DNA from: Endobacterium cereale | GTDB taxonomy: Bacteria; Pseudomonadota; Alphaproteobacteria; Rhizobiales; Rhizobiaceae | Assembly (NCBI RefSeq): GCF_009617585.1 | Contig: NZ_WIXI01000050.1 | Span: 310,001 to 374,000, forward strand | DNA: 64,000 nt | Direction: 5' to 3' | Shown: positions 47,196 through 63,359 of the stretch, one piece after another | How positions within the stretch are numbered: position 1 is the first letter of the stretch | How the letters are laid out: each line of letters starts with the position of its first letter | The notes under the pieces: model-generated | What the model saw: only the letters and a program-made list of their open reading frames with translations | Told to the model about the DNA's origin: nothing | The model's database searches: none | Position numbers and translations under genes: made by a program

Positions 47196-47927
47196 TCAAA
47201 TGACGTGGGCGGCCTGCAATGCCGTCAGCACATCGCTCTTTAGTTCAGCCAGTCGCGCGGCGCGGCGATCACGAGGACGCGGGACATCGACGGACAGATC
47301 ATGCTGGATGCCGCCATCGCCTGCGCCCATCACGTAGATGCGATCGCCGAGATAAAGCGCTTCATCAATGTCATGCGTGACCAGCAGAAACGAAATGCCC
47401 CGCTGTTCGACAAGCTTGAGAACGAGATCCTGCAGCTTCATGCGGGTAAAGGCATCGACGGCGCTGAAGGGCTCGTCGAGCAGCAGGATACGCGGTTCGG
47501 TGTAGAGCGCGCGGGCAATCGCCACACGCTGCGCCATGCCGCCTGAAAGCGCTTTCGGCAGTGTGGCGGCGTGACCGGTCAGGCCCACATCGGCAATCAG
47601 CCCGTTCACCCGGCCGGTGTCATATTTGGCACCGTCTGCGAAACCGATATTCTGCGAGACCGTCAGCCATGGCATCAGCCGTGGTTCCTGGAACACGAAG
47701 GCCACGGGCGGCGACTTCGTGTTTCCATCCTGCCCGGTTTTGACCGACACGCTGCCCGAAAACTGCTTGTCCAGGCCGGCGGCAATACGCAGAAGCGTGC
47801 TCTTGCCGCAACCGCTCGGGCCCAGCAGAACGGCTGCCTGGCTATCGTCCAGACTGAGCTTGATGTCGTGCAGGACAATCGTTTTGCCGAAAGCTTTTTC
47901 GCGAACGTCTATATCCAGAAGGCTCAT
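47196..47927 (-). CDS. ssuB: sulfonate ABC transporter ATP-binding protein, SsuB-like
   Basis: 243 residues from ATG 47927, overlapping the permease stop by ATGA. Walker A LLGPSGCGKSTLLRIAAGLD, Q-loop FVFQEPRLMPWLTVSQN, signature [17 protein letters not shown], Walker B ILLLDEPFSAVDAFTR and switch His LLVTHDIDEALYLG. Nitrate/sulfonate/taurine type. Confidence 0.93.
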   Translation of the reverse strand: MSLLDIDVREKAFGKTIVLHDIKLSLDDSQAAVLLGPSGCGKSTLLRIAAGLDKQFSGSVSVKTGQDGNTKSPPVAFVFQEPRLMPWLTVSQNIGFADGAKYDTGRVNGLIADVGLTGHAATLPKALSGGMAQRVAIARALYTEPRILLLDEPFSAVDAFTRMKLQDLVLKLVEQRGISFLLVTHDIDEALYLGDRIYVMGAGDGGIQHDLSVDVPRPRDRRAARLAELKSDVLTALQAAHVI

Positions 47928-48793
47928 GCCGGGCGCCCTCCGATTGCGGTCGCATAGCTGTCGCGCCAAGACAAGCAACGGTCCTCGATCAGCTTGAACA
48001 GGCTGTCTGAAACTTTTCCCAGAACCGCCAGACAGATGATGGCGATCAGCACAAGATCGGGGCGGGACAATTCACGGCCATCCGACAGCATATAGCCGAT
48101 GCCTTCCGAGGCTGCGAGAAGTTCGGCGGCCACGACGCTCAGCCAGGCAAGCGACAACCCGTAGCGCAGGCCGGTAAAGAGGTGCGGAAGGGAGGCCGGG
48201 ATGAGGATACGCCAGACCAGGACGGGTAGGGGCTGCCGATACATCTCCCCGACTTCCACCAGTTTGCGATCGACATTGCGGATGCCGGAAAACAGGCTGA
48301 GATAGACGGGGAAAAACGCGCTTTTGGCGATCAGCACGATTTTCGACGTTTCGCCGATGCCGAACCAGATCATCAGCAGTGGTACCCAGGCAAGGCTCGG
48401 CACGGCGCGAAGTGCCTGAAAACTCGGCTCGAGATAACGCTCGGCCGAATACCAGAGGCCAACCACCGAGCCAACGATGACGGCGAGCAGCGAGCCGATG
48501 ACAAAACCGGTGAGCACACGTAACGCACTTGCACCAATATTGGTCCAAAGTGGCCCCTCTGCCAGATAAAGAAAAGTCTCATAAAGATCCGATGGCGGCG
48601 GTAGTACGTATGGACTGATCCAGCCCATACGGACAAATAGCTCGAGAAGAGCCAGCGCGCCGACCGGCACGATTGCGCCGCGCAGGTCGACAGACACAAT
48701 TTTCGCGATGATCCGGGAGGATGCTCTCGATGACCGAGTTTTTATCTGTTCGTCTTGTGCCTCGCCCCTGAATTCATGGGTGGAAATCGTCAT
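47924..48793 (-). CDS. ssuC: sulfonate ABC transporter permease, SsuC-like
   Basis: 289 residues, six membrane helices after a 35-residue polar N-terminus. EAA loop region (GEMYRQPLPVLVWRILIPAS) and family segment FQALRAVPSLAWVPLLMIWF are clear. Coupled by ATGA overlaps to the binding-protein gene upstream and the ATPase gene downstream. Confidence 0.93.
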   Translation of the reverse strand: MTISTHEFRGEAQDEQIKTRSSRASSRIIAKIVSVDLRGAIVPVGALALLELFVRMGWISPYVLPPPSDLYETFLYLAEGPLWTNIGASALRVLTGFVIGSLLAVIVGSVVGLWYSAERYLEPSFQALRAVPSLAWVPLLMIWFGIGETSKIVLIAKSAFFPVYLSLFSGIRNVDRKLVEVGEMYRQPLPVLVWRILIPASLPHLFTGLRYGLSLAWLSVVAAELLAASEGIGYMLSDGRELSRPDLVLIAIICLAVLGKVSDSLFKLIEDRCLSWRDSYATAIGGRPA

Positions 48794-49785
48794 GAGCCGA
48801 GTACTTTCCGGGCCGGCGCAGGCTCCAGAAGCTGGCCGAGAACATCATCGACATTCGTCCCCGGTCGCAGAACTTCCGGACCAAGGAGAGGTGTGGCCGT
48901 CTTGATGGAAGCCAGCAGTTCATCACCGGGAACCGGGTCCGTCCAATCGCGGCGTTCGACCGTCAGCTTTGTGACCTGCGGGTCGCCACCGGCCTGCTCG
49001 GTCACGAATGCGATGAACTCCTCCTTGTTTTCGCGGATCCACTTTTGCGTCTGCGCCCAGACACCTAGCACGCGCTCGACCGCTTTGGGGTGCTTGCCGA
49101 GAAACGCTTCCGATACACTGAAAACGCTACCTTCACGCCAGCTTCTATCGTTGAAAATTGCACGGTCGCCGGCGATTTCCGCCTGCGCCGTTTGCGGGTC
49201 GATCCCGACCCAGGCATCGACCTGACCCTGTCGAAGCGCGGCGAACCCTTCCGGGTGCTGCAGATTGACGACCTTAAGGTCGTTGATGGTCAGGTCGGAC
49301 TTCGAGAGTGCACGCACCAGCGTGAAATAGGGCGCCGTACCCTTGGTGACGGCGATCGTTTTGCCCTTCAGGTCCGCCACGGATTGCAACGGAGAATCCT
49401 GCTTGACCTGAATGATCGAAGAGCCGCCCCAGCTTGCCACGTAAATGACTTTCAGAGGTGCGCCATTGGCACGCGACAGGAAGGCGGAGAGAGCCGCAGA
49501 CCCGGCGAAATCCGTTGAGCCTACCTTTAGAAATTCGAGCGAATTATTGCTGCCGCGCGACTGCACCCAGGTGATTTTCGTGCCGACATCCTTGAACGCT
49601 TCCTCAAGCCAGCCCTTGTTTTTGATGAGCAGCGTGTGGGAGGAATAGAAGCCCCAGTCGAGCCGCAATTCCGTTGGAAAATCCGCACTGGATTGGGCGA
49701 GGGAGGCGCCTAGAGAAAGCGGAGATGCGAGAATTGCTCCTGCACCGATTTTGAGAGCATTTCGTCTCGAAAGCATCATCGTCAT
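48790..49785 (-). CDS. ssuA: sulfonate ABC transporter substrate-binding protein, SsuA-like
   Basis: 331 residues from ATG 49785, eight bases after TAGGGA; an in-frame TTG at 49818 is unlikely. N-terminus LSRRNALKIGAGAILASPLS carries an Arg pair before the hydrophobic core and may be a Tat signal. SsuA/TauA-type domain (SADFPTELRLDWGFYSSHT, LKGKTIAVTKGTAPYFTLVR, GQVDAWVGIDPQTAQAEIAG). First gene of the minus-strand unit, with an Rrf2-type dyad just upstream. Confidence 0.92.
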   Translation of the reverse strand: MTMMLSRRNALKIGAGAILASPLSLGASLAQSSADFPTELRLDWGFYSSHTLLIKNKGWLEEAFKDVGTKITWVQSRGSNNSLEFLKVGSTDFAGSAALSAFLSRANGAPLKVIYVASWGGSSIIQVKQDSPLQSVADLKGKTIAVTKGTAPYFTLVRALSKSDLTINDLKVVNLQHPEGFAALRQGQVDAWVGIDPQTAQAEIAGDRAIFNDRSWREGSVFSVSEAFLGKHPKAVERVLGVWAQTQKWIRENKEEFIAFVTEQAGGDPQVTKLTVERRDWTDPVPGDELLASIKTATPLLGPEVLRPGTNVDDVLGQLLEPAPARKVLGS

Positions 49786-49798
49786 TATATTCCCTATA

Positions 49799-49815
49799 TC
49801 TATCGATTTTATAGA
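49799..49815. promoter_or_regulatory. candidate Rrf2 operator upstream of ssuA
   Basis: TCTAT-N7-ATAGA dyad followed by CAATAGG. It sits 14 bp before the ssuA start, in the 305-bp ssuA/rrf2 divergent region (49786-50090), which otherwise shows no gene. The same 5-7-5 layout recurs at 52763-52779 and, less perfectly, at 52512-52528. Confidence 0.6.
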
Positions 49816-50090
49816 CAATAGGTATAGGCAAACCGGTTTCGAGCGTCGCGGTAAGGAATCCTATAATTCTGGCAGGGCCAGGAAAATTATATTGAAACGC
49901 CATCGGTCCCTCGCAAGGGTGTTCCGTCTGCATCTCCAGCCAGAGACGGAAAATCGCATCTCGAAAGATAGACGTTGATGCTGCCGACGCCTCAATTCGC
50001 AGGCTTTATTGAACCATCCGCAGCCTTCGTGTATCTGGGAAATCATTCCTGCGTGCTGTGCCAGGGCGAAGAACGGATAGATTTATCTCG

Positions 50091-50537
50091 ATGCTCACCA
50101 AGAAGGGGAAATACGGCCTCAAGGCGCTGGTCCATCTTGCACAGCTAGAGCCCGGTAAAACTGCCTTCGTGAGCGAGATCGCCGAAAAGAACAATATCTC
50201 CAAGAAGTTTCTCGACGCCATTCTTCTGGAATTGCGCAAGGGCGGCATCCTGCGCTCCAAAAAAGGGCCGGGCGGCGGTTATGCGCTTTCCAAGCCGGCC
50301 TCCGAGATTTCCATCGGGCAAGCTGTGCGGATTCTGGACGGGCCACTTGCGCCCATCCGCTGCGCCAGCAAAACCGCGTTCGAAGCCTGCGACGACTGCG
50401 ATCATCCGGACGACTGTCAGGTAAGGCATTCGATGACGGAAGTCAGGGATGCCATTTCCGCGGTTCTCGATACGATGACACTGGAACAGATGGTCGCCAA
50501 GCGTTCCTCTGATCTCGCCGACAGGCTCATCCAGTAA
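50091..50537 (+). CDS. Rrf2-family regulator with Cys cluster (CymR/IscR-like)
   Basis: 148 residues from ATG 50091. Winged helix of the Rrf2 type (LTKKGKYGLKALVHLAQLE, NNISKKFLDAILLELRKGG, SKKGPGGGYALSKPASEISI). Cysteines at residues 91, 100, 103 and 109 occupy the region where IscR holds its Fe-S ligands, so a cluster or a thiol sensor is plausible; CymR of Bacillus lacks this and senses cysteine synthesis through CysK. Flanked on both sides by organosulfur genes, it probably reports sulfur or cysteine status. Possible sites are the TCTAC/GTAGA dyads nearby. Confidence 0.9.
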   Translation: MLTKKGKYGLKALVHLAQLEPGKTAFVSEIAEKNNISKKFLDAILLELRKGGILRSKKGPGGGYALSKPASEISIGQAVRILDGPLAPIRCASKTAFEACDDCDHPDDCQVRHSMTEVRDAISAVLDTMTLEQMVAKRSSDLADRLIQ

Positions 50538-51755
50538 TCAAAATTGGCCGTTGGGTTCCGGCAGTTTGCCATTGAGATGGAAATCGCCGATTGCGTGATG
50601 TTTCCATCGCACCGGATCGTGCACCGTATGTGTGCGAGCATTGCGCCAGTGGCGATCGAAATTGAAGCTCTCGTCGGTTGATGATGTTCCCGCAAGCTCG
50701 AACAAGGCATTCGTTGCCTCAAGGGCTGCTTCCGTCGTCAGGATTTTTGCGGATGCTACGGCAATCGACGCTTCAGCGGCGACCTCTGCGGACGGACTGA
50801 CCTGTGCAATGTCAATCTTGCTTCCGGCACGCTCCAGAACGGCCGCCGCCGCCTCGATTTTAACGGCGATCGACCCGGCCCGTGCGACTGTCAGCGGATC
50901 ATGGCTTGCGGTATCGATGCCGAGATTGCTGTTGCCGCGTGCCTTTGTGCGCACGAAATCGACCATATCGGCAAACGCTGCGCGGGCGATGCCAAGGTCC
51001 ACGGCGGCGTGCAGCAATTGTGCCAGGGCGCCAAGCGGAGCTGGTTGCGAAAAGGCCTTATGACTTTCAATCACGGCGTCGGCGGACACATAGAGATTGT
51101 CGATCACGACGGTGCCGCTTGCGGTCGTGCGCTGTCCGAACCCCGACCAGTCGTCGATGACAGACAAACCGTCGCTCTCTCTCGCGACGATCGCCATCAC
51201 CAGCCTGTCCTGCACATCCAGCGCGAAGATGGCGATCCAGTCTGCAAACAGGGCGCCGGTTGAATAATATTTCCGTCCAGAGATACGGTAACCCGGACCG
51301 TCCTGCACGAGACGTGTGCTGATGTCGCCAGATGCTTTCGCATCCCGTTCCGCCAGCGCATTGGCAAAATGGTCACCGGCCAGCGCGCGCGTAAAGAAGT
51401 AGCGCTTCTGTTCCTCGCTGCCTGCAAGGCGCAGTACATCGAGAATATAAAAATGGTTCTGCGGGATCTGGCCTATGGAACTGTCCGCCTCGGACAGGAT
51501 GGCGAGCATTTCCGCCAGAAACGGGTTGGAGATATCCGCCCCACCATACTCCGCCGGCACGGTTACACCGAGAAGGCCGGATTGTGCCAAGAGCTGCATC
51601 TCATGATGCGGCAGGATACGTTGTCGATCGCGCAGGCTTGATCCTTCGCTTAACCGGCTTGCCATAGATTTGGCGATATCGATCGCCTGGTCTTCATGGG
51701 CGATGTAGGGCGCAACCGCCCTGAGCTTTGCTGCCAAGCCAACGACACTGCCCAT
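50538..51755 (-). CDS. SfnB-like sulfur-acquisition oxidoreductase (acyl-CoA dehydrogenase fold)
   Basis: 405 residues from ATG 51755, six bases after AGGAGG. Acyl-CoA-dehydrogenase fold with AEYGGADISNPFLAEMLAIL and ISGRKYYSTGALFADWIAI, and the SfnB/DszC-type C-terminal end (RNARTHTVHDPVRWKHHAIG). Family members are FMN-dependent monooxygenases acting on sulfones or thiophene-type compounds under sulfur limitation. Its stop lies against the rrf2 stop (convergent). Confidence 0.88.
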   Translation of the reverse strand: MGSVVGLAAKLRAVAPYIAHEDQAIDIAKSMASRLSEGSSLRDRQRILPHHEMQLLAQSGLLGVTVPAEYGGADISNPFLAEMLAILSEADSSIGQIPQNHFYILDVLRLAGSEEQKRYFFTRALAGDHFANALAERDAKASGDISTRLVQDGPGYRISGRKYYSTGALFADWIAIFALDVQDRLVMAIVARESDGLSVIDDWSGFGQRTTASGTVVIDNLYVSADAVIESHKAFSQPAPLGALAQLLHAAVDLGIARAAFADMVDFVRTKARGNSNLGIDTASHDPLTVARAGSIAVKIEAAAAVLERAGSKIDIAQVSPSAEVAAEASIAVASAKILTTEAALEATNALFELAGTSSTDESFNFDRHWRNARTHTVHDPVRWKHHAIGDFHLNGKLPEPNGQF

Positions 51756-51906
51756 CCGAGCCTCCTGAAAATTCAACTCAGCCTAAACGGATTGCCTCCC
51801 GGCAGCACGGCATCGAGCCACTGCACCGGGTTCTGAAAGGGGAATAAAGCTTCAATATCTCTCGTTGGCTTGGCGTATTTTGCCATGATCGATCGATGTG
51901 CCGGTT

Positions 51907-52440
51907 TCAGGACGAGACCGAACCGTAGCGGCCGCGACTGTATATCAACGGCGAACCGCCCTGCGCGGTGACGGCGACGACCCGGCCAATGATGATGGCA
52001 TGGCTATGCCTTTCGATAATGTCTTCCACCTCGCAATCGATGGATGCGAGCGAGCCGACGAGAGCAGCAGCACCCGTAACCAGCGTGGTCCATTCCGCAC
52101 CGCCGTAACGCTGCCGCCCCTTCAGCCCGTCTTTGCCTGAAAAACGCTCGGCCACGACCTGATCCTCGATATCCAGGATGTTGACGCAGAAATGGCCGTA
52201 CTTGGCGATGACAGGCCATGTGGACGAGGATTTGTTGATGTTGACGATCATCGTGGGTGGATCGACCGAAAGGGCCGTCGCCGACGTCACGGTGGCGCCC
52301 GTCCTGTCTTCTCCGTCTCCTGCAGTCACGACAGATACCGTGCCTGCAACATGCCGCATGACGGCTTTTAGTTCTTCGGCCGACGGTGCCGGGAGATGAA
52401 ATGCCGGTTCGATCGTCAATGACGTGGCAAGCGTGCTCAT
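51907..52440 (-). CDS. flavin reductase (HpaC/SsuE-function, flavin_reduct domain)
   Basis: 177 residues. Flavin-reductase-like split barrel: VMRHVAGTVSVVTAGDGEDR, ATVTSATALSVDPPTMIVNI, NKSSSTWPVIAKYGHFCVNI, and HAIIIGRVVAV at the end. Supplies reduced FMN to monooxygenases; the neighbouring SfnB-like enzyme and the three luciferase-like enzymes are the obvious clients. Start chosen at the second of two adjacent ATGs (52440) for better spacing to GGAG. Same strand as the SfnB-like gene, 151 bp ahead of it. Confidence 0.9.
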   Translation of the reverse strand: MSTLATSLTIEPAFHLPAPSAEELKAVMRHVAGTVSVVTAGDGEDRTGATVTSATALSVDPPTMIVNINKSSSTWPVIAKYGHFCVNILDIEDQVVAERFSGKDGLKGRQRYGGAEWTTLVTGAAALVGSLASIDCEVEDIIERHSHAIIIGRVVAVTAQGGSPLIYSRGRYGSVSS

Positions 52441-52511
52441 CATGTCTCCATTGGTTGGCAGCGAAGGATAAATCGGCTCCTGCAGCTGCGTGGATGGGTG
52501 AGACGCTATAA

Positions 52512-52528
52512 GCTATTTAATTTGTAGA
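52512..52528. promoter_or_regulatory. candidate Rrf2 operator upstream of the flavin reductase
   Basis: GCTAT-N7-GTAGA followed by CAAAG, a degenerate copy of the TCTAC-N7-GTAGA dyad, about 70 bp before the flavin reductase start in the 376-bp divergent region 52441-52816. The region holds no gene. Confidence 0.45.
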
Positions 52529-52762
52529 CAAAGAAGAACATCGCGAAGATCAGCATGAATGTAGAAAGGATTTTCTCCAGCGATATGATTTATCGATGTC
52601 GGCGCTGCGAAAATTCCACGCGATGGCGATAATCTGAAACGCCTCACTATGGGCTATGATGCCCTCCCGGATCCGTATCGGTTTCAAAATTCTCATGCAC
52701 GGCAAAAGCCGGGACGTATTTTCTCCCTTTGCAGCGGCAATCGAAAATTACGCCCTTCATTA

Positions 52763-52779
52763 TCTACTAAATCAGTAGA
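52763..52779. promoter_or_regulatory. candidate Rrf2 operator upstream of the monooxygenase operon
   Basis: Perfect dyad TCTAC-N7-GTAGA (TCTACT and AGTAGA arms), followed by CAAATAG, 37 bp upstream of the first luciferase-like gene. Best copy of the motif shared with 49799-49815. Confidence 0.65.
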
Positions 52780-52816
52780 CAAATAGTGCGGTATCGAAAC
52801 TGCCAGCGAGGCGACC

Positions 52817-53812
52817 ATGTATTCACTGAGCCTGCTCGACAAGAGCCCGATCTCGTCAGGAGAAAGCGCGGTATCGGCGCTTTCCGATACCGTCAAGCTG
52901 GCGAAGAGGGCGGAAGAGCTTGGTTATCGCCGCTTCTGGGTGGCAGAACATCATGGCAGCACCGAGCTGGCAAGTTCTGCGCCGGAGGTGCTGATCGCCT
53001 GGATCCTGTCGCACACGTCTCGCATTCGTGTCGGTTCCGGTGGCGTCATGCTGCAGCATTACAGCCCTTACAAGGTGGCCGAGGTGTTCAATCTGCTTTC
53101 GTCGCTGGCGCCGGGGCGGGTCGATCTTGGTGTCGGCAAGGCGCCGGGCGGGCTGCCGCAATCGACGGAGGCACTGCAGGCCTATCGCCGGGAAAAACCA
53201 GATTTCGATCAGCAGTTGGCTGAATTGCAGGCCTTTCTCGCTCACGCCGTGAATTCAGATCGGCCAAATGAGCGCGCCTTTCCCGGCCCGCAGCCGCTGG
53301 TGGCCGCGGAACGGTTTTTACTCGGGGCGAGCCCAGGCAGTGCCAGGTTGGCGGCCGCCCAGGGCTGGGATTTCGTTTTTGCCGGGCATCTCAACGGCGA
53401 CCCGGAAAACCTGCGCCTCAGCCTTGAAACCTATCGTCAGCAGAGCGGTGGAAAGTCGCCGATCCTGGCACTCTCCGCCTATGCATCTGAAAACGCGGCG
53501 GATGCACGGGCATTCGTCTCGGAACTAAAGATCTTCAAGGTCTTCCTCGACAACGGCCAGTCGGTCAGCCTTGGTCGCCGCGATCAGGCGGAGGAGTTTG
53601 CGAGGCAGGCCGGCGCCACGGACTTTCGCATAGAGGAACGCAAACCGAGTGTGTTGCATGGCACGCCGGGCACCATCCATGCGGAACTCGCACGCCTGAC
53701 TTCTCTCTACGGCATCGAGGAATTCATTCTCGAACCGCCCGCCGCCGGTATCGACCGGCGCCTGGCATCCATCGAGCTTCTGGCTCGCAATCCTCTCTCG
53801 GCAGCAGCCTGA
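52817..53812 (+). CDS. luciferase-like flavin monooxygenase, MsnO8/CmoO type
   Basis: 331 residues. N-terminus [20 protein letters not shown] and the segment [20 protein letters not shown] are typical of the MsnO8 branch of bacterial luciferase-like enzymes, to which B. subtilis YtmO (CmoO) belongs; [20 protein letters not shown] follows later. Needs FMNH2. First gene of a plus-strand run that reproduces the parts list of the Bacillus ytmI-ytnM operon, so a role in oxidising N-acetylated S-substituted cysteines is proposed. Confidence 0.87.
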
Positions 53813-53829
53813 TTTCAAGGATATACCGA

Positions 53830-55167
53830 ATGACCAGGAAGATCAGTTTCGGCATCATGTTGCAGGGCGCAGGGGGCCACATGAATGCGTGGCGCCACCC
53901 AAAGAGCCCGGTCGATGCCAGTGTCAATCTCGATTTCTTCAGGACCGCCGCGCTGAAAGCCGAAGCGGCGGGCATTGCATTTGCCTTCGTCGCCGACGGC
54001 CTCTACATCAATGAAAAATCGATCCCGCACTTCCTGAACCGTTTCGAACCGCTGACCATTCTGGCTGCACTGGCGACGGTGACGAGCAGGATCGGCCTCG
54101 CTGGCACGGTCTCCACCTCCTACAGCGACCCCTTCACCATCGCCCGCCAATTTGCCTCACTGGACCTGATCAGCGGCGGCCGCTGTGGCTGGAATGCCGT
54201 GACGACCCCGCTCGAGGGGACTGCAAAAAACTACAGCCGTAACCATCCCGAGCACGCATTGCGCTACGAGATTGCCGATGAATATCTAGAGGTTGTGAAG
54301 GGCCTTTGGGATAGCTGGGACGACGATGCCTTCACCCGCGACCGTGAGAGTGGACAATTTTTCGACCGTGAAAAGCTGCATACGCTGGGGCACAAGGGTC
54401 GGTTCTTTCAGGTCGAGGGCCCGCTCAACATCCAGCGCTCGCCGCAGGGCCAGCCGGTCATTTTCCAGGCCGGATCTTCGGATGCCGGTATCGGGCTTGC
54501 CGGAAAACATGCCGATGCGGTGTTCACCAATGGCGTTTCGCTGGAAGGCAACCAGACTTTTTCCCGCCGTGTGAAACAGTCCGCAGTGGCACAGGGACGC
54601 TCGGCGGATGACGTCAAGATTTTCCCGGGCGTAGGCCCGATTGTCGGCCGCACACAGGCCGAAGCGGAGGAGAAATATCAAGTCATCCGCAATCTCATCT
54701 CTATCGATGAAGCGCTTGCCTATCTCGGTCGCTTCTTCGATCAACACGATTTCAGCGCCTATGATCTCGACGCACCGTTTCCGGACCTTGGGGATATCGG
54801 CCGGAACAGCTTTCGCTCCACCACGGACCGCATCAAGCAGGTGGCGAAAGAGCAGGGGCAGACCTTGCGCGAAGCAGCACTGGCAGCGGCCACTCCGCGG
54901 GAGGGGTTTGTCGGCACGCCGGATGCGGTCGCCTCCAAGCTCATCGAATGGTTCGAAAACGGAGCAGCCGACGGCTTCATCCTCGGTTTCCCGGTGATTG
55001 CGGAAGGTCTGGATGATTTTACCCGCCTGGTCCTGCCGATCCTTGAAGAGCGGGGCTATTTCGACCCGCAGCTCAAGGCCGGCACATTGCGGGAAAATCT
55101 CGGCCTGCCGTACCGCCAGAGCGTTTACGCAGGTGTCGATGGAGAAACCGAAAAAGCCCGCGCCTGA
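53830..55167 (+). CDS. NtaA/SnaA/DszA-family FMN-dependent monooxygenase (CmoJ/YtnJ-like)
   Basis: 445 residues, the long luciferase-like class. [20 protein letters not shown] near the N-terminus, [40 protein letters not shown] and [20 protein letters not shown] are family hallmarks. Members remove sulfur- or nitrogen-linked groups (DszA, NtaA, YtnJ). 17 bp after the first monooxygenase and followed by a deacylase, matching cmoJ-like context. Confidence 0.92.
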
Positions 55168-55187
55168 CACTTTGAAAAGGTGAAACC

Positions 55188-55208
55188 GCGCCGCCAACCC
55201 GGCGGCGC
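55188..55208 (+). terminator. intercistronic hairpin before the M20 deacylase gene
   Basis: 8-bp stem GCGCCGCC/GGCGGCGC with loop AACCC, no T run; likely an mRNA hairpin rather than a terminator. Confidence 0.4.
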
Positions 55209-55229
55209 CAACCTTTGGAAAGCAACTCC

Positions 55230-56417
55230 ATGAACATCCACATTGACAGCGCGCGTCATCGCGATGACGCCGAACGGACGATCCTTGCCTACGCACCGGA
55301 ATTGGTGGCGATCCGCCGCGATCTTCATCAGTACCCGGAACTCTCCTTTCACGAGGGACGCACCGCCAAGGTCATCGCCAGATATCTGCTCTCCTACGGT
55401 TTTGAAGTAACGGAGGGTGTCGGCGGTTACGGGGTCGTCGCCACGCTGCGGCGTGGCAAGGGTGACAAGCGGCTCGGCATTCGCGCCGATATCGATGCCT
55501 TGCCGATAGAGGAGGCAACGGATCTCCCCTATGCCAGCCACAACCCGCGCGTCATGCATGCCTGTGGGCATGACGGCCATACTGCCATCCTGCTGGGCGC
55601 TGCGCGCTACCTTGCAGAGCAGGGCCGTTTTTCCGGCACACTGACTCTGATTTTTCAACCTGCGGAAGAGGTGGGGGCAGGTGCAAAAAAGATGATCGAG
55701 GACCGCCTGTTCGAGCGTTTCCCGGTCGATGCGGTCTTCGGCCTCCACAACTGGCCGGGCGTGGCGGCAGGACAGTTCGGGTTCGTCGAAGGGCCGGCCA
55801 TGGCATCGGTTGACCAGGCGCTGATCCGTATCATCGGCAAAGGCGGCCATGGTGCCTCGCCGCATGAAACGGTCGACCCGGTTCTCGCTTCCGCCTCCTT
55901 CATCACCGCCCTGCAGAGTATCGTCGCTCGCAATGTTGATCCCCTGGAAATGGCGGTTCTGACGGTGGGTTCGATCCATGGCGGTTCTGCCTCCAACGTC
56001 ATTCCGGACAGCGTTGAGTTGAAGCTGACTGCGCGCGCTTATTCACCAGCCGTGCGCGACCGCCTCGAAGAACGCGTTCCAGCACTCGCCCACGCACAGG
56101 CGCAAAGCTTTGGCGCGCAGGCAGATGTCAAATACCGCCGTGGTTTTCCACCCGTCATCAACCACATCGAGGAAACCCGTTTTGCCCGTCGCGTCGCGGA
56201 AGAGACTTTTCCGGCGGAGCAGGTGGCCGGCGACTTTCGCCCGCGCACGGCAAGCGAGGACTTTGCATACATGCTGCAGGAGCGCCCCGGCTCCTACCTC
56301 TTCATCGGCAATGGCGACAGCGCGCCACTGCACAGTCCGCTTTACGACTTCAACGACGACATCATCGTGCCCGCCGCGCGCTATTGGGCGCGGCTTGCCG
56401 AAGTTTTTCTCTCCTGA
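55230..56417 (+). CDS. M20D amidohydrolase (N-acyl amino acid deacylase, SndB/YtnL-like)
   Basis: 395 residues from ATG 55230. Peptidase M20D signature: HQYPELSFHEGRTAKVIARY, metal ligands in HACGHDGHTAILLGAARYL, catalytic Glu pair in FQPAEEVGAGAKKM, dimerisation-domain GHGASPHETVDPVLASASF. Relatives are hippurate hydrolase, indole-acetyl-amino-acid hydrolase and Bacillus YtnL, which deacetylates cysteine conjugates. With an acetyltransferase gene next to it, an acetylate-oxidise-deacetylate route is suggested. Confidence 0.9.
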   Translation: MNIHIDSARHRDDAERTILAYAPELVAIRRDLHQYPELSFHEGRTAKVIARYLLSYGFEVTEGVGGYGVVATLRRGKGDKRLGIRADIDALPIEEATDLPYASHNPRVMHACGHDGHTAILLGAARYLAEQGRFSGTLTLIFQPAEEVGAGAKKMIEDRLFERFPVDAVFGLHNWPGVAAGQFGFVEGPAMASVDQALIRIIGKGGHGASPHETVDPVLASASFITALQSIVARNVDPLEMAVLTVGSIHGGSASNVIPDSVELKLTARAYSPAVRDRLEERVPALAHAQAQSFGAQADVKYRRGFPPVINHIEETRFARRVAEETFPAEQVAGDFRPRTASEDFAYMLQERPGSYLFIGNGDSAPLHSPLYDFNDDIIVPAARYWARLAEVFLS

Positions 56418-56456
56418 CCGACTGACCAAACCGCCTCAAATCTGGGAGTGCGACCC

Positions 56457-56996
56457 GTGAGTGATCGCTTTTATTACACCACACCGCTCGATCCGCTGGC
56501 GCGACCGCTGATCGACGAACTGACGCTCGAATATGACAGCCGCTATGGCAGTTTTTACGATGCCGAAGGTGCAACCATGGAAATGAACCGTTATCAGCCG
56601 GACGTGTTTGCACCGCCCAACGGCAATTTCCTGCTGCTGTTGCGCGATGGTCAGGCGATAGCAGGTGGTGCCTTCATGCGCCATGCGGATGAAGGTACCA
56701 CCGAGGTGAAACGTGTCTGGACCCACTCCGGTTATCGCCGTCAGGGGCTGGCAAAACGCGTGCTGCTGGAACTCGAGGAACAGGCGTTGCGGCAAGGGTA
56801 TGCCCGCATCTACTTGACTACCGGTTTTCGCCAGCCGGAGGCGGTCGGCCTCTATCTCACCAACGGCTATACGGCCTTGTTCGACACATCCGTCGATCCC
56901 GAAACCATCCGAAAGCTTCCGTTCGAAAAGCACCTGACGGTGGGGCGTTTTGCTGTGCAGCCGACTGGCCGCGTAACCGCCCTGCATGGCATCTGA
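56457..56996 (+). CDS. GNAT acetyltransferase (SnaA/YtmI-like)
   Basis: 179 residues. The GTG at 56457, eight bases after GGGAG, is preferred to the GTG at 56448, which overlaps that site. GNAT acetyl-CoA loop [20 protein letters not shown] followed by [12 protein letters not shown]. In the Bacillus pathway YtmI/SnaA N-acetylates S-substituted cysteine before monooxygenation; here the neighbours (M20 deacylase, two monooxygenases, amino-acid transporter) support the same job. 11 bp before the transporter gene. Confidence 0.88.
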
Positions 56997-57007
56997 GGAG
57001 CTCGACA

Positions 57008-58798
57008 ATGACGATCACGACGGATTTCAACGATATCCCGGCAGAGAAGAACAAAACGGCGGTCAGGCGCGGAGACTACTCGCATTATCGTATCGTGCCG
57101 GCCCGGTATCCGGCCCGCACCATCGGCACGGTGTTCGCACTTCTGGTGATCGCCGCCACGCTGCATTCGGTTCTCGGCAATCCTCGCTGGGGCTGGGATG
57201 TGTTTGCGGAATGGTTCTTCGCCGAACCGGTTCTGGTCGGTCTGGCACGCACGCTGCTGCTGACGGCGCTCGGTGCGCTGTTCGGGTTCATTCTCGGCAC
57301 CGGTCTGGCGCTCGCGCGTGTGTCACGCTCGCCGCTGCTGGTCGGGGTGTCATGGACCTATATCTGGATCTTTCGTTCGATCCCGTTGATCGTGCTGTTG
57401 CTCATCCTCAACAATCTCGGTTATCTCTACGAGACGATCACCGTTGGCGTGCCCTATACCGGCATCAACTTCATCAGCTGGAACACGACGCAGCTGATCA
57501 CGCCTTTTGCCGCAGCCGTTTTGGGCCTCACGCTCAATCAGGCGGCCTTTGCTTCGGAAATCATCCGCGGCGGCATTCTCTCCGTCGACCAGGGACAGCT
57601 GGAGGCGGCGTCCGCACTCGGTCTGCCGCGTCACCGTCAAGCCTCGCGCATCATCCTGCCACAGGCCATGCGCTCTATCCTGCCGACCGCTTTCAACGAT
57701 ATCATTGGTCTCGCCAAGGGAACATCGCAGGTCTACATCCTGGCGCTGCCAGAACTGTTCTACACGATCCAGATCATCTATCGCCGCAATCTGGAAGTCA
57801 TTCCGCTGCTCATGGTGGCCACGGTCTGGTATCTCGTCATCCTGACGGTTCTGTCGATTATCCAGCACCATATCGAGCGGCATTATTCACGCGGGGCGCT
57901 GCGCAATCCACCACCTTCGATCTTTTCCGGTCTTTATCGCCGTTTTTCGCCGGCACGCGGAGACGCTACAATTGCCAAAGAGGAACCGGTCGTCCGCGCG
58001 GGCTCAAAGCCGGTCAGCCGCAATCCGCTGCATGCGCGCGGCGGGGAGGTGACGATCCATGCCGTCTCGAAAAGTTTCGGTCCCCTGAAAGTGCTTGATG
58101 ACGTATCGCTGCGCATCGCGGCCGGCAGTGTCACCACCATTCTCGGCCAGTCCGGATCCGGCAAATCGACGCTGTTGCGCTCCATCAACCACCTGGAACG
58201 TGTCGATGACGGATTTATCGCCATCGACGGAGAGCTGATCGGTTACCGTCAGGATGGCGAGACCCTCTACGAACTGAAGGAGAAGGACATTCTCAAACGC
58301 CGTGTCGAAGTCGGCATGGTGTTCCAGAATTTCAATCTCTTCCCGCATCTGACTGCGCTGGAAAACATCGTCGAGGCGCCGGTGACGGTGCGCGGCCTGC
58401 CACGCCGGCAAGCCGAGGTCGAAGCGCTTGATCTTCTCGCACGCGTCGGACTGACCGACAAGGCGTATGCCTTTCCACGCCAGCTGTCCGGCGGCCAGCA
58501 GCAGCGTGTGGCGATTGCCCGTGCGCTCGCGCTCAAACCAAAGGTCCTGTTGTTCGATGAGCCGACCTCGGCGCTCGACCCGGAACTTGTCGGCGAAGTG
58601 CTCGATGTCATCAAGGAGCTTGCCCGTTCCGGTGCCACGCTCGTTATCGTCACCCACGAAATCGGCTTTGCCCGTGAAGTCTCCGATCAGGTCGTCTTCA
58701 TGGAACAGGGCCGCATCCTTGAAACCGGCTTGCCGGACAAGGTTTTCAAACGGCCGGATCATCCGCGTACTGCGGCATTCCTCGCCAAAGTTCTCTAA
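57008..58798 (+). CDS. amino-acid ABC transporter, permease fused to ATPase
   Basis: 596 residues. Residues ~60-300 are a His/Glu/Gln/Arg/opine-type permease (EAA-like loop [20 protein letters not shown], then [17 protein letters not shown]). From ~340 a PolA-type ATPase follows with Walker [21 protein letters not shown], signature [18 protein letters not shown], Walker [19 protein letters not shown] and switch His [13 protein letters not shown]. The homodimer therefore supplies both membrane channel and motors; no separate permease or ATPase gene is needed. Counterpart of TcyL/M/N for cystine-like substrates. Confidence 0.94.
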
Positions 58799-58821
58799 CT
58801 CAAAACAAGGAAACACTCAGG

Positions 58822-59760
58822 ATGTCATACAGAACACGACTTCTCAGCATAGCCGCCGGCGGCCTCCTGTCGCTTTCGGCGGCGCTCGCTTCGAATGCGC
58901 AGGCTCAAGGCCCCGATCTTTCACCCACACAGAAGGATCGCGTGCGCGTCGAAAAGGTGGAGGCCGCTGCCAAGCTCATCCCCGCCGATTTCAAGTTCGT
59001 GACGCCGGGCAAACTGACGGTCGCCTCCATTCCCGGACGGCTGCCGTTTGCGGTCTATGCCAATGATAACAAGACCCCGGTCGGAAGCGAGCCGGATATC
59101 GCACAGCTGGTCGCCGACAGTCTCGGCTTGGAGCTTGAGCTGGTGCCCATCGCCTGGGCCGACTGGCCGCTCGGCGTCACTTCCGGCCGTTTCGATGCGG
59201 CGATACACAACATCACGGTGACCGAAGAACGCAAGCAGAAATTCGACTTCTCGACCTATCGCAACGATCTCATCGGCTTTTATGTGCCACTCAACAGCGC
59301 GGTGCAGAGCATCTCCAAGCCGGAAGACGTCGCCGGCCTCAAGGTGATCGTGTCTTCCGGCACCAATCAGGAGGAGATCCTGTTGCGCTGGAGCGAGGCC
59401 AACAAGGCCAAGGGTTTAGCGCCGAGCGAAGTGCAGTATTACGACGACGAGGCCGTGCTTGATGTCGCGCTGCAATCCGGTCGCGCCGATGCCTATCTCG
59501 GCCCGAACGCCACCTCCGCCTTCAAGGCGGCGCAGGAGAATAAGACGAGGCAGGTCGGCACATTCTCCGGCGGCTGGCCGGAAACTGCCGAAATCGCGGT
59601 CGCGACCAAAAAGGGTGGGGGCCTTGCCGACGCGTTCACCACGGCCCTCAACGCCCAGATCGAGAACGGCAACTATGCCAAGGTTCTTGCGCGCTGGAAC
59701 CTTTCGGCCGAAGCCATCAAGCAGTCGCGTACGAACCCGCAGGGTCTGCCCAAGAGCTGA
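58822..59760 (+). CDS. amino-acid ABC transporter substrate-binding protein, copy 1
   Basis: 312 residues, Sec signal peptide (GGLLSLSAALASNAQAQG). SBP family 3: FAVYANDNKTPVGSEPDIAQ, LELVPIAWADWPLGVTSGRF, VTEERKQKFDFSTYRNDLIG. Partner of the fused transporter just upstream. Together with the next gene it forms a tandem pair, as TcyJ/TcyK do in Bacillus. Confidence 0.93.
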   Translation: MSYRTRLLSIAAGGLLSLSAALASNAQAQGPDLSPTQKDRVRVEKVEAAAKLIPADFKFVTPGKLTVASIPGRLPFAVYANDNKTPVGSEPDIAQLVADSLGLELELVPIAWADWPLGVTSGRFDAAIHNITVTEERKQKFDFSTYRNDLIGFYVPLNSAVQSISKPEDVAGLKVIVSSGTNQEEILLRWSEANKAKGLAPSEVQYYDDEAVLDVALQSGRADAYLGPNATSAFKAAQENKTRQVGTFSGGWPETAEIAVATKKGGGLADAFTTALNAQIENGNYAKVLARWNLSAEAIKQSRTNPQGLPKS

Positions 59761-59801
59761 CCCTGTCCATCTCTGAGTGTCGAGGGAAACAGCAACTCGG
59801 C

Positions 59802-59828
59802 GACGCGGGCAATCCTTTGGCCCGCGTC
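59802..59828 (+). terminator. intercistronic hairpin between the two binding-protein genes
   Basis: 9-bp stem GACGCGGGC/GCCCGCGTC (59802-59810 with 59820-59828), loop AATCCTTTG, followed by CTTTG. Weak T tract; partial terminator or stabiliser. Confidence 0.5.
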
Positions 59829-59845
59829 CTTTGCCCATCAACCGG

Positions 59846-60796
59846 ATGAACGCCATGACCATGATCCAAAACCTCAGCCGCCTGATCGGCGTTGGCCTCC
59901 TCAGCCTGCCTCTGCATGTCTATGATGTAATGGCCGCCGACGATATCTTCGATCTTTCTCCGGAACAGTCCGGCCGCATCCGTGTCGAAACGGACACGGC
60001 AGCGATTGCCGCGCTCCCGAAGGATTTCAAGTTTGCCAATTCCGGCAAGTTCACGGTCGCCGTCTCCACCGGTGGGCCGCCACTGGCGACCTATGCCACT
60101 GACGCCAAAACCGTCGTGGGCGCCGATCCTGATTACGCTCTGGCGATCGCCGATAGCATCGGACTCGAACTGGAGCTTGTGCCTGTCGCCTGGGCTGACT
60201 GGCCGCTTGGACTGGTCTCCGGAAAATACGATGCGGTCATTTCCAATGTCGGCGTTACCGAGTTACGCAAGAAGAAATTCGACTTCTCCACCTATCGTCA
60301 GGGCCTGCACGGTTTCTTTGTCAAGGCCGACAGTGCTATCCAGGATATCAGGGAACCGAAGGATGCGGCAGGGCTGCGCATCACGGTGGGCGCCAGCACC
60401 AATCAGGAACGCATCCTGCTCAAGTGGAGCGAAGAAAACATTGCCGCAGGACTGAAGCCAATCGAGCTGCAATATCACGACGACGATGCGGCCAGGATCA
60501 TTGCGCTCCAATCCGGGCGTGTCGATGTCATCGTCCAGCCGCATGCACAACTCGTCTATATCGCTGCCCGAGACAGGAACATCAGGCGCGCAGGCACGCT
60601 CTCGGCCGGCTGGCCCGAGCGCTCGGATGTGGCTATCACCACGCGCAAGGGGTCTGGTCTTGCCGATCCGCTGACGCTTGCAACCAACGATCTCATCAAA
60701 TCCGGCGCCTACGCCAAAATCCTTGAACGCTGGCATCTATCGGAGGAAGCACTGCCGGAGTCGGAGACAAACCCGCCGGGTTTGCCGGAAAATTGA
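59846..60796 (+). CDS. amino-acid ABC transporter substrate-binding protein, copy 2
   Basis: 316 residues from ATG 59846 (ATG 59855 also possible); signal peptide LSRLIGVGLLSLPLHVYDVM, cleavage near AADD. Paralogue of copy 1 in every segment (LELVPVAWADWPLGLVSGKY, VTELRKKKFDFSTYRQGLHG), differing in binding-pocket regions, so the pair probably widens the substrate range of one transporter. Confidence 0.92.
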   Translation: MNAMTMIQNLSRLIGVGLLSLPLHVYDVMAADDIFDLSPEQSGRIRVETDTAAIAALPKDFKFANSGKFTVAVSTGGPPLATYATDAKTVVGADPDYALAIADSIGLELELVPVAWADWPLGLVSGKYDAVISNVGVTELRKKKFDFSTYRQGLHGFFVKADSAIQDIREPKDAAGLRITVGASTNQERILLKWSEENIAAGLKPIELQYHDDDAARIIALQSGRVDVIVQPHAQLVYIAARDRNIRRAGTLSAGWPERSDVAITTRKGSGLADPLTLATNDLIKSGAYAKILERWHLSEEALPESETNPPGLPEN

Positions 60797-61315
60797 TGCG
60801 GTGCCGCTTCGAAAAGGACGGCGGACCATTCAGGATGCCGGTGCAAACCGCTCGATACTTTTATAGCCTGATGCAATCAATGTGGCATTGAGTTCGGCGT
60901 TTCCGTCAATTTGCAAAGAGGAAATGTCCGCTGAGATATTCTGTGCGTCGCGGGAAAGGCACTGTTTCGGCACTTTCGCCGCCACCAGATGATGCGAACA
61001 TCGACGGTCGGCGAAGGTCATCTACTTATAGCATCCCGACATGCCAAAATCCCAAAGTGAAGCCATGGAGATTAATGGCATGTCGCATATGGGAAATAAA
61101 ATGTACCCCTGGAGGACACTGATATTTGATAATATGCATTATGGAACTTATTAATTGCTGTTTATGCTCAGATACTTGCGTTGGAGAACTTATTTATCGT
61201 CTCAGACCTTATCCGACGATGCCCAGCTCGATCTCGAAACTCAGCCCATCATGCGAATGCGTGTTCATATGCGACTTGCTAGTAATTTCAATGATTTCAC
61301 TTTCGAGATTTGGAT
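60797..61315. other. gene-poor stretch before the IS30 relic
   Basis: About 520 bp with no supported gene. A 63-codon minus-strand ORF (60830-61021) with ordinary codon use was noticed but not recognised. From about 61060 the sequence turns AT-rich, unlike the neighbouring operons, which fits old mobile DNA. Confidence 0.5.
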
Positions 61316-61687
61316 ATGTCAAAATGCTATACTCAGGTCGCCCTTACCGATCGCCTGCGTCTTCATTATCTGGTGACGGCAGAGGTTTTGGTCAATGATA
61401 TGGCGCGTCATCGATCCAGGATCTATCGCTCATTTACGGTGAGGAAGATGATGGCTTAGGCTTTTTGGTTACGTGCCCGAGGCGGGCCGCCAATGTCTTC
61501 CATGCGACTCTCGAAGCACAGTGTCTTTTTTGCGACATCTGGCTGCTGGGAAAGCGACCTTATGATCTTCGAGCGCAAGCTCAGTCATGGAACGGATCAT
61601 CGCAACTTTCTCGTCCGTATCATGGCGTCAGCCCACCGTCCACAAGGCTCTCCTACCATTTCCCGTAACCAACCATTTTACTCCTAA
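61316..61687 (+). pseudogene. IS30-family transposase relic
   Basis: One frame holds two fragments of an IS30-like transposase separated by a TAG (61457-61459). The first (from ATG 61316) has the N-terminal helix-turn-helix pattern YTQVALTDRLRLHYLV and MARHRSRIYRSF, close to the family's YTQLSL...RHRSTIYREI. The second has CWESDLMIFERKLSH, the WEGDL(I/M) core that starts the catalytic domain. Only 372 bp remain of the usual ~1 kb, most of the DDE domain is gone, and no terminal inverted repeats were found. Confidence 0.68.
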
Positions 61688-61726
61688 AGCCTTGCCATAA
61701 ATCTCTCCGAAATCATCGGTTGACAG

Positions 61727-61738
61727 CTAACATGTTAG
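61727..61738. promoter_or_regulatory. palindromic operator candidate upstream of the DapA-like gene
   Basis: CTAACATGTTAG, a perfect 12-bp palindrome 36 bp before the DapA-like start. FCD-type GntR proteins bind such TAACATGTTA-like dyads, and a GntR gene lies two genes downstream. Confidence 0.6.
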
Positions 61739-61774
61739 ACGACTACCACTAGGCAATCAGAGGAGGAGACACTC

Positions 61775-62656
61775 ATGACACGCTTCGGTCTATCCGTCGC
61801 ATTGACCACCCCGTTCGACGAGAATGGCGATATCGTGCTCGATATGATGCTCGCGCAGGTGAGACGCGGCCTTGCCGGTGGCTGCAACAGCTGCACCCTC
61901 TTCGGCACGACCGGTGAAGGGTCTTCGATCGGCCATCAGGAACGGGAGCGCGTCCTGTCGGCAGTGCTCGATGCCGGTGTGGCACCTGAGCAGATCGTTG
62001 TCGGCGTGCTGGTGGATTCGGCGGAAGATGCGGCCGAACAGGCCAGGCTCGCGCTCGATCGCGGCGTACGCAACATTCTTCTCGCACCACCCTCCTATTT
62101 CAAGAACGTCAGCGACGAGGGCCTGTTTCGCTGGTTTTCGCGGGTGTTTTCGCTGCTTGGGTCCAAGGCGCGAGATATCCTCGTCTACAACATCCCGTCC
62201 GTCACCATGGTGAAGCTCAGCGTGCCGCTCGTCGCCCGTCTGCGCGAAGCGTTCCCCGGCATCGTCACCGGCGTCAAGGATTCGGGTGGTGACTGGGATC
62301 ACACGCAAGCTCTGCTGAAAGACCATTCCGACCTAATCATCCTGATCGGCGACGAACGGCATCTGGCGCAGGGTGTGCGCATGGGTGGTCAGGGCGCCAT
62401 TTCCGGTGTTGCCAATTTTGCGCCGCAGGAAGTCGGTGCCATGGCCAATGAGGGGCGTGACGATCCGCGCGTGGTCGAACTTGTGGTCGCGCTCCTGAAG
62501 CACCCGGTCACGCCTGCCGTCAAGGCGATGGTCGCCCGTGAACTCGGCGATCAGAAATGGCTTGCGGTTCGCGCGCCGCTGCTTTCTACATCGACCGACG
62601 TACAAAACGAACTCGGCCACCTCTTTGACGGACTTTTCCGCACGAAGGCGGCCTGA
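61775..62656 (+). CDS. DapA/NanA-family aldolase or dehydratase
   Basis: 293 residues, class I Schiff-base TIM barrel. FGTTGEGSSIGHQERERVLS is the substrate-carboxylate loop, Tyr in VYNIPSVTMVKLS, and the Schiff-base Lys in IVTGVKDSGGDWDHTQ. Could be dihydrodipicolinate synthase-like, a keto-deoxy-sugar-acid dehydratase or an N-acetylneuraminate-lyase-like enzyme; the nearby FCD regulator and sugar-type binding protein favour catabolism. Ribosome site AGGAGGAGA before the ATG. Confidence 0.9.
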   Translation: MTRFGLSVALTTPFDENGDIVLDMMLAQVRRGLAGGCNSCTLFGTTGEGSSIGHQERERVLSAVLDAGVAPEQIVVGVLVDSAEDAAEQARLALDRGVRNILLAPPSYFKNVSDEGLFRWFSRVFSLLGSKARDILVYNIPSVTMVKLSVPLVARLREAFPGIVTGVKDSGGDWDHTQALLKDHSDLIILIGDERHLAQGVRMGGQGAISGVANFAPQEVGAMANEGRDDPRVVELVVALLKHPVTPAVKAMVARELGDQKWLAVRAPLLSTSTDVQNELGHLFDGLFRTKAA

Positions 62657-62687
62657 GCACCAAAAAACGACCGCAACAGGGACAGTG

Positions 62688-63359
62688 ATGCAACAACACG
62701 ACGACCAGCAGGTGGAAGAACCCACGCTTCGGGAAAAGGCCTATGAGAGCTTTACCCGACATCTGCTGGCGCGTGACGTGCGGCCCGGCCAGTTCGTGTC
62801 GCAGCGTCGCCTTGTCGAACTGACCGGCCTGCCGCTCGGTGCCATTCGTGAACTGATCCCACGGTTGGAGGCCGAGGGGCTGATCAAGACGGTGCCGCAG
62901 CGCGGATTGCAGATCGCCCATATCGACCTGCATCTGATCCGCGAAGCATTTCAGCTGCGCCTGTTTCTGGAAAAGGAAGCGGTCGCACTATTTGTTCATT
63001 CGGCATCCGACGAACTGATCGGCAGGATGATCGGCAAACATCGCGAACTTGCGGCGGCGGCCGCCGCCGGCAACGAAACGCCGGAACTGGAAGCGGAAGC
63101 GCAGGCGGTCGACTGGGGCATGCATGACGCCTTTATCGATGCGCTCGGCAACCGCATCATTTCGAATGTCTACCGCGTCAACTCGATCAAGATGCGGCTG
63201 ATCAACCAGGAACGTTTTCGCATCAATGGCCGTGTCGCGTCGGTCATGGGCGAGCATATGGGCGTGCTTGACGCCATCGAGCGCCGCTCCGCCGAGGATG
63301 CGGTCCTGGAACTCGTTAAGCATATCGGACATGCGAGGGACCGCGCCCTCAGGATTTAA
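62688..63359 (+). CDS. GntR-family regulator, FCD subfamily
   Basis: 223 residues from ATG 62688; a longer frame upstream overlaps the previous gene. Winged helix (DVRPGQFVSQRRLVELTGLP, AIRELIPRLEAEGLIKTVPQ) and FCD ligand domain (MHDAFIDALGNRIISNVYRV, GEHMGVLDAIERRS). Probably controls the DapA-like gene through the palindrome at 61727 and the transporter starting at 63427. Confidence 0.9.
   Translation: MQQHDDQQVEEPTLREKAYESFTRHLLARDVRPGQFVSQRRLVELTGLPLGAIRELIPRLEAEGLIKTVPQRGLQIAHIDLHLIREAFQLRLFLEKEAVALFVHSASDELIGRMIGKHRELAAAAAAGNETPELEAEAQAVDWGMHDAFIDALGNRIISNVYRVNSIKMRLINQERFRINGRVASVMGEHMGVLDAIERRSAEDAVLELVKHIGHARDRALRI

Follow-up and report, generated by a model that had tools for sequence, protein, structure and literature searches.

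Introduction

The closest described counterparts of the locus examined here are the ytmI-tcyJKLMN-ytmO-ytnIJ-ribR-ytnLM operon of Bacillus subtilis, which is controlled by CymR, and the scm (yxe) operon. The S-alkylcysteine route is said to go back to reports by Chan in 2014 and Hazra in 2022. Its chemistry is set out in passages of PMC10863075 as acetylation, sulfoxidation by CmoO, cleavage by CmoJ to a sulfenic acid and an aldehyde, reduction and finally deacetylation, and the same passages describe the CmoO/CmoJ route as widely distributed among soil bacteria. Passages of PMC12757645 report N-acetylcysteine deacetylase activity for ScmP, YhaA and YtnL, link the ytn and yha clusters to S-methyl- and S-benzylcysteine, and assign S-(2-succino)cysteine (2SC) to scm; 2SC routes are also described in parts of PMC9706529, and the relevant lines of PMC5270733 merely cite S-alkylcysteine work. 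In this work we analysed a 64,000-nucleotide stretch of DNA from Endobacterium cereale (contig NZ_WIXI01000050.1, positions 310,001 to 374,000), referred to below as the window. Seven genes on its plus strand (52817-60796), here called the cmo operon, probably serve in sulfur scavenging, by recovering cysteine from S-alkylated cysteines of the methyl or benzyl type. A pathway of this kind is already known, and what appears to be new is its proteobacterial make-up and a putative regulon. Genomes are coded G and loci L, G000 being the genome that holds the window, and B. inaquosorum (ytm operon at L009) stood in for the ytm and yxe proteins of B. subtilis in the comparisons.

Orthology of the two flavin monooxygenases

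The first gene of the operon (52817-53812) encodes an MsnO8-family protein (TIGR03558, 326.7 bits against a cut-off of 166.95), predicted to be an N-acetyl-S-alkylcysteine S-oxygenase, and the second (53830-55167) a protein of the NtaA/DmoA family (TIGR03860, 514.2 bits against 279.7), predicted to be a sulfoxide C-S monooxygenase. The second protein is 57% identical to YtnJ of B. subtilis and 46-47% identical to YxeK of B. inaquosorum, a name that in this species rests on the adjoining YxeP-like M20 gene. Compared with solved structures it scored 633 bits against 3sdo, deposited as a nitrilotriacetate monooxygenase, and 536 against YtnJ, after which the next match fell to 292. In a careful tree of 57 rows, 36 of the original 93 having been removed beforehand as long branches or redundant, the window protein and YtnJ share a 37-row clade (support 96/90) that is nested in a 42-row clade (100/100), and YxeK lies outside both. 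Forcing the window protein and its 18 nearest cluster rows to group with YxeK made the tree 119 log units worse and was rejected by the approximately unbiased (AU) test (p-AU 4.5e-10).

Reciprocal best matches with B. inaquosorum were obtained for the window CmoJ and YtnJ and for the window CmoO and YtmO, the reverse direction covering those loci of this genome that were matched by window proteins. The window CmoO is nearest to YtmO (42-43% identity), and YtmO in turn is nearest to the window CmoO, the genome having yielded two MsnO8 loci to choose from. In a quick 54-row tree, the 39 cluster-linked CmoO proteins fell into one clade (quick-tree support 99), separate from 15 other MsnO8 proteins. 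Reciprocal matches, trees and the AU test together identify the two monooxygenases as the CmoO and CmoJ orthologues of the ytm operon, and the kinship with CmoO and YtnJ claimed in a first-pass annotation of the window is upheld.

A second NtaA/DmoA-family monooxygenase, 46% identical to CmoJ, was found elsewhere in this genome (G000:C10; L168:6344-10632), behind an amino-acid ATP-binding cassette (ABC) permease, an ATPase and a 446 aa protein that has no NCBIfam match. This locus is perhaps another thioether or sulfur route.

Gene content and proposed pathway

Five further genes follow the monooxygenases on the plus strand: an M20D amidohydrolase (55215-56417; TIGR01891, 359.2 bits, with HACGHD and PAEE motifs), a predicted N-acetylcysteine deacetylase; a GNAT acetyltransferase (56448-56996; PF00583), a predicted S-alkylcysteine N-acetyltransferase; a fused amino-acid ABC permease and ATPase (57008-58798; PF00528 plus PF00005); and two solute-binding proteins of the SBP_bac_3 family (58822-59760 and 59777-60796; PF00497 in each) that are 53% identical to each other. 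The gaps between the seven genes are 11-47 bases, and because of this a single transcript is likely. Scans of the DNA for promoters and terminators gave counts at or below the shuffle mean. Pfam and NCBIfam scans recovered every gene named in the first-pass annotation, in the order and at the positions given there.

In the proposed pathway, S-alkylcysteine would enter the cell through the fused permease-ATPase with the help of both binding proteins, and the acetyltransferase would acetylate its amino group. CmoO would oxidise the sulfur to a sulfoxide, and CmoJ would split the C-S bond of the sulfoxide to give an aldehyde and N-acetylcysteine sulfenic acid, which cell thiols would reduce to N-acetylcysteine. 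The M20 deacylase would then release cysteine, with a flavin reductase encoded nearby providing reduced flavin mononucleotide (FMNH2).

We followed this gene set through 33 proteobacterial CmoJ loci, made up of the window, 28 of 40 fetched loci and four loci on plasmids (three genomes contribute two each; the remaining 12 fetched loci either fall outside the 37-row clade of CmoJ or served for comparison), and through 80 Firmicute loci, the best 80 of 547 found. CmoO is present in 32 of the 33 and an M20 protein in 27. The cluster recurs both in genomes from within the same family, order and phylum and on plasmids assigned to Rhizobium and Neorhizobium, the two genera of the best-matching plasmid records; in Rhizobium beringeri pRlX4 it lies near repC. 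As the gene set recurs in other genomes, its assembly in the window is not due to chance. Matches of at least 70% identity were found in 7 of 151 genomes of the family and of at least 60% in 22 of 398 of the phylum; G140, of the same genus, has only a 34% match.

From the locus-by-locus counts, given in part below, we conclude that the CmoO-CmoJ pair is the constant part of these clusters and that the helper parts (importer, acetyltransferase, deacylase and sulfenate reductase) are replaceable. A one-piece permease-ATPase was found in 22 of the 33 proteobacterial loci and in 1 of the 80 Firmicute loci, and binding proteins of the window type in 30 and none respectively. Acetyltransferases of the window type are likewise present in 30 proteobacterial loci and 1 Firmicute locus, and YtmI-type acetyltransferases in 3 of the 33.

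In 12 of the 33 loci a third luciferase-type monooxygenase, about 60% or more identical to that of R. beringeri, follows or adjoins the binding-protein genes; these include L149 of the same genus and L089 of N. galegae. It is missing at the corresponding site of the window (60797-61774), and the best match elsewhere in the genome is just 31% identical.

Helper proteins and the likely substrate

The first-pass annotation had proposed S-substituted (succinated) cysteines as the substrate. We prefer S-alkylcysteine because the grouping with YxeK is rejected and because the literature gives 2SC to scm/yxe, with the ytn cluster linked to methyl- and benzylcysteine in passages of PMC12757645. What weighs against the S-alkylcysteine reading comes from a remark in that source, which allows that the natural substrate of the ytn cluster may still have to be found, and from the helper proteins, beginning with the deacylase. 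In a careful M20 tree (6 of 42 rows dropped), the window protein and those proteobacterial relatives that do not belong to group f49 (14 rows in all) cluster with four M20 paralogues from the same genome (18 rows, 100/97), and YtnL, YxeP, the M20 proteins of Firmicute clusters and those of group f49 lie on the opposite side (17 rows, 100/98). YhaA, on a long branch, is placed beside the window side. When 31 cluster-linked M20 proteins were forced together without the four paralogues and YhaA, the tree was 22.5 log units worse (p-AU 0.026), for a constrained group chosen post hoc after a quick tree. The best match of YtnL in this genome is another M20 locus (302 versus 291 bits), and the relation is not reciprocal, so the window M20 is probably not the YtnL orthologue.

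The match between the acetyltransferase and YtmI is barely detectable (phmmer E 3e-4, in a small set). This weak match and the locus counts, rather than a tree of the family, place the window GNAT in a lineage other than that of YtmI. A glutaredoxin-like reductase of the CmoI (YtnI) type is also absent from the cluster and from all 33 proteobacterial loci. However, only 12 of the 80 Firmicute loci have a CmoI match within about 9-10 kb on either side, so that CmoI is not a general feature of such clusters. The idea that its absence tracks glutathione use was rejected as a simple rule, given that 68 of the 80 Firmicute loci also have no CmoI match (about 10 kb each side); no glutathione genes were searched for. 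On three Rhizobium plasmids (L090:17112-17705, L091 and L092) the gene for the third monooxygenase is followed by one for a DsbA-family protein, which is also encoded in L160, where the third monooxygenase was not found. The DsbA-family protein could be a CmoI substitute that reduces the sulfenic acid.

The importer offers a hint about the substrate. In solute-binding proteins of this kind an Arg holds the carboxylate of the ligand and an Asp usually holds its free amino group. The carboxylate-site Arg is retained in all 54 cluster binding proteins, and the amine-site Asp is replaced in all 54 (by Pro in 44 and Val in 10). Both binding proteins of the window are without this Asp, which is a poor fit to a free amino acid. 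This residue pattern may point to N-acylated ligands, and it favours an alternative in which a pre-modified compound is imported, either a plant-derived sulfoxide of S-alkylcysteine or an N-acyl-S-alkylcysteine (mercapturate), and the acetyltransferase acts on no more than part of the load. We consider this unlikely, for the acetyltransferase that 30 of the 33 loci carry would be idle on an acetylated substrate, and TcyJ, TcyK and YxeM are likewise without the Asp (Thr, Thr and Ser). Because the Bacillus importers share it, the residue pattern does not settle the substrate.

A second alternative, in which the operon is a 2SC breakdown route as first annotated, has in its favour that CmoJ belongs to the same monooxygenase family (TIGR03860) and that the strategy of acetylation, cleavage and deacetylation outlined in PMC12757645 is common to both. 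It appears very improbable, because of the AU rejection described above, because CmoO stands beside CmoJ here while scm is described with a single monooxygenase, and because the passages of PMC12757645 on methyl- and benzylcysteine link them to ytn and yha and not to scm. Equally improbable is the catabolism of an unrelated xenobiotic or plant conjugate by monooxygenases with new substrates and an M20 amidohydrolase of amino acid conjugates, since the position of the M20 protein outside the YtnL clade and its matches to a plant indole-3-acetic acid-amino acid hydrolase have to be set against the placement of both monooxygenases inside the cluster-linked CmoO and CmoJ clades, a neighbourhood of sulfur genes and a shared operator.

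The recovery of cysteine from S-alkylcysteines is thus the reading that we retain. The acetyltransferase and the deacylase that it calls for are both inside the cmo operon of the window and are both conserved across related loci. Plants produce S-methylcysteine and its sulfoxide, and for this reason the route may bear on the sulfur supply of root bacteria.

A candidate operator and its regulator

Upstream of the cmo operon lie a flavin reductase gene (51907-52443, minus strand; PF01613), whose product is the probable FMNH2 supplier and reached no equivalog cut-off in the NCBIfam scan; a gene for an SfnB-family, acyl-CoA-dehydrogenase-like flavin monooxygenase (50538-51776, minus strand), which exceeds the equivalog cut-off of TIGR04022 (550.7 against 430.9 bits); and a gene for an Rrf2-family regulator (50091-50537, plus strand; PF02082) with four Cys at positions 91, 100, 103 and 109. 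Divergent from the last is a sulfonate-type operon (44533-49818, minus strand). The adjoining pair of SfnB and flavin reductase and the Cys-bearing regulator are as first annotated.

Three operator-like sites of the form TCTA-N9-TAGA were found here. The palindrome TCTATCGATTTTATAGAC (49799-49816) lies 13 bases 5' of the likely ATG of the SsuA-like gene (49785, minus strand, taken from the sequence); GCTATTTAATTTGTAGAC (52512-52529), with one mismatch, lies 68 bases before the start of the flavin reductase gene; and the palindrome TCTACTAAATCAGTAGAC (52763-52780) lies about 37 bases 5' of cmoO. The word CTA-N9-TAGACAA correspondingly begins at 49800, 52513 and 52764. Its count speaks against an operator, as it occurs 5 times genome-wide and the reversed control also 5 times. 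Because the counts are not enriched, the case rests on a stretch of 3 kb in which three of the five words each precede a sulfur operon, together with conservation. Within the window, TCTA-N9-TAGAC with one mismatch allowed gave 7 matches, palindromes being scored on both strands, against a shuffle mean of 2.02, and 1 of 100 shuffles reached 7; two of the 7 are a single place (61788) inside another gene and not before a sulfur operon.

A perfect TCTA-N9-TAGA lies 30-40 bases before the cmoO start in 8 of 32 loci, each matched by at most 0.3% of 300 shuffles. Sites with one mismatch were found about 50 bases away in G340 and G343 (7% and 2% of shuffles), at 127 bases in G088 (1%) and, at chance level, at 138 bases in L167 of G517 (15%); in the other 20 loci at least two positions are mismatched. 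Under a stricter pattern, 16 genomes or records yielded 48 matches and the reversed control 8, symmetric sites being counted twice in both.

Presence of the sites was compared with that of the regulator. Rrf2 orthologues of at least 59% identity are present in G000, G047, G120, G399, G340, G343, G088 and an N. galegae plasmid, and all eight have a site with at most one mismatch before cmoO. No orthologue was found (best match at most 46%, or none) in G149, G063, G072, G525, G468, G466, G447 and G517; these eight have no perfect site, and only G517 has its chance-level one. With the stricter pattern, genomes without the orthologue gave 1 match in G149, 1 in G063 and none in G525 (controls 2, 1 and 0), and G140 gave a single palindromic site, counted twice (control 0). 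The operator thus goes with the Rrf2 orthologue in these 16 genomes or records, with kinship as a confounder: all site-bearers belong to one family or its named genera, yet site and orthologue are both missing from three members of that family (G149, G063 and G072). The plasmid loci L090, L091 and L092 carry perfect sites and do not settle the matter, the search having covered two of the three plasmids, with no orthologue found, and none of the chromosomes. G073, G147, G128, G092 and G029 have the orthologue and no cmoO locus in the set.

Sulfur-type genes stand beside the site in 9 of 35 fetched site loci: cysG (L320 and L322), cysH (L333 and L335), msuE (L323), metQ (L337), a tauD-like gene (L332) and a sulfonate-type monooxygenase gene (L321), both under cut-off, and an ssuC-like gene (L314). 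The site of L326 leads into a module of flavin reductase, SfnB and Rrf2. Annotation covered part of the neighbours (20 site-side proteins against NCBIfam, ten sequences against Pfam), and many of those scanned are of non-sulfur types (ubiH, kef, panE and RND); sites with no known sulfur gene alongside are probably chance occurrences. One operator-like site near an M20 paralogue (C32) was considered as a second salvage operon and dropped, as it lies downstream of the M20 gene and before an oxidase-like frame.

The four Cys of the regulator are invariant in 13 rows of at least 59% identity and in 8 rows of 43-46%, which include a cysH-linked paralogue, and they are absent from its best B. inaquosorum match, presumably the CymR of that species. 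In this genome the paralogue, also with four Cys and about 45% identical to the window Rrf2, is divergent from cysH (L280:9600-11196, G000:C21). The cysH-Rrf2 divergon has an intergenic operator in G399 and G128 and none here, which makes this paralogue a less likely binder in G000. The window Rrf2 is the candidate binder, and it is probably the regulator of the cmo, flavin reductase and sulfonate-type operons. When cysteine or sulfide is plentiful it would bind TCTA-N9-TAGA and repress all three together. No operator or regulator of sulfur scavenging in Rhizobiaceae is described in the titles and abstracts of the literature searched, full texts aside.

We tentatively put forward a broader, joint proposal, to which we give slightly less than an even chance. 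The Rrf2 protein would be an alphaproteobacterial counterpart of CymR that arose separately within its family, a repressor of sulfur acquisition among Rhizobiaceae that binds TCTAY-N7-RTAGA, senses cysteine, a thiol or an iron-sulfur cluster, and governs the scavenging of organosulfur compounds (cmo, ssu and sfnB/flavin reductase) and, in relatives, sulfate assimilation (cysG and cysH) and msuE; at the same time the cmo operon would be a mosaic in which only CmoO-CmoJ is ancestral, the importer, acetyltransferase and deacylase each having been recruited anew.

Neighbouring genes

The sulfonate-type operon encodes SsuA-, SsuC-, SsuB- and SsuD-like proteins and, at its end (44533-46224), a 563 aa FAD-NAD(P)-binding protein (PF13454). 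In G140, G047 and G128, relatives of this protein (28-30% identity) are encoded beside a copy of the operator. From the shared operator we infer that this operon and the cmo operon have the Rrf2 regulator in common. SfnB adjoins the Rrf2 orthologue in L273 and L274 also, and a flavin reductase is adjacent to it in L275 and close by in L273. A second layout of the module is seen in L273 (5952-7055, G047), where the operator precedes a 2-oxoglutarate-Fe(II) oxygenase gene, followed by flavin reductase, SfnB and the Rrf2 orthologue. Downstream of the cmo operon, a DapA-family aldolase-like gene overlapped by a GntR-type regulator frame (61775-63359) has no sign of an operon link.

Comparison with known systems

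The SfnB equivalog and the SsuABCD-like operon alongside the cmo operon resemble the SfnB/Ssu genes for scavenging sulfonates and sulfones, with the difference that the SsuD-like protein (46071-47147) scored 214.9 bits, below the SsuD equivalog cut-off of 518.2. Like CymR of the Firmicutes, the regulator is an Rrf2 protein that apparently acts at organosulfur operons. Its NF047409 score of 86.2 bits falls short of the cut-off (195), and none of its four conserved Cys is aligned in the best B. inaquosorum match. The suggestion that it mirrors CymR therefore holds as an analogy, given the shared operator before operons, and fails as a matter of family membership. The scm (yxe) operon is similar in its scheme of acetylation, cleavage and deacetylation and in having an NtaA/DmoA-family monooxygenase. 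It differs in that YxeK falls outside the CmoJ clade of the window and in its described make-up of a single monooxygenase without CmoO. No 2SL lyase that might replace YxeK is among the annotated operon members, no search having been aimed at one.

The ytm operon is compared last. The window region 40001-64000 gave no match to CmoI, RibR, YtnM or YtlI and has, unlike the ytm operon, an adjoining Rrf2, SfnB and flavin reductase. Its deacylase is from another M20D branch, its GNAT and binding proteins are of other lineages, and its permease is fused to the ATPase, a difference from Bacillus that had been recognised from the outset. The part-by-part equivalence proposed for the YtnL-type deacylase, the YtmI-type acetyltransferase, the binding proteins and the transporter finds no support. 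What the analysis offers is an extension of a pathway worked out in Bacillus to root-nodule bacteria and other Proteobacteria, a separation of the fixed part (CmoO-CmoJ) from replaceable helpers, and a candidate operator and regulator for sulfur scavenging in Rhizobiaceae. The equivalence with ytmI-ytnM stands in the orthology of CmoO and CmoJ and in the logic of acetylation, oxidation, cleavage and deacetylation, and the two operons have in common CmoO, CmoJ, an acetyltransferase, an M20 deacylase and an ABC importer for amino acids that has two binding proteins.

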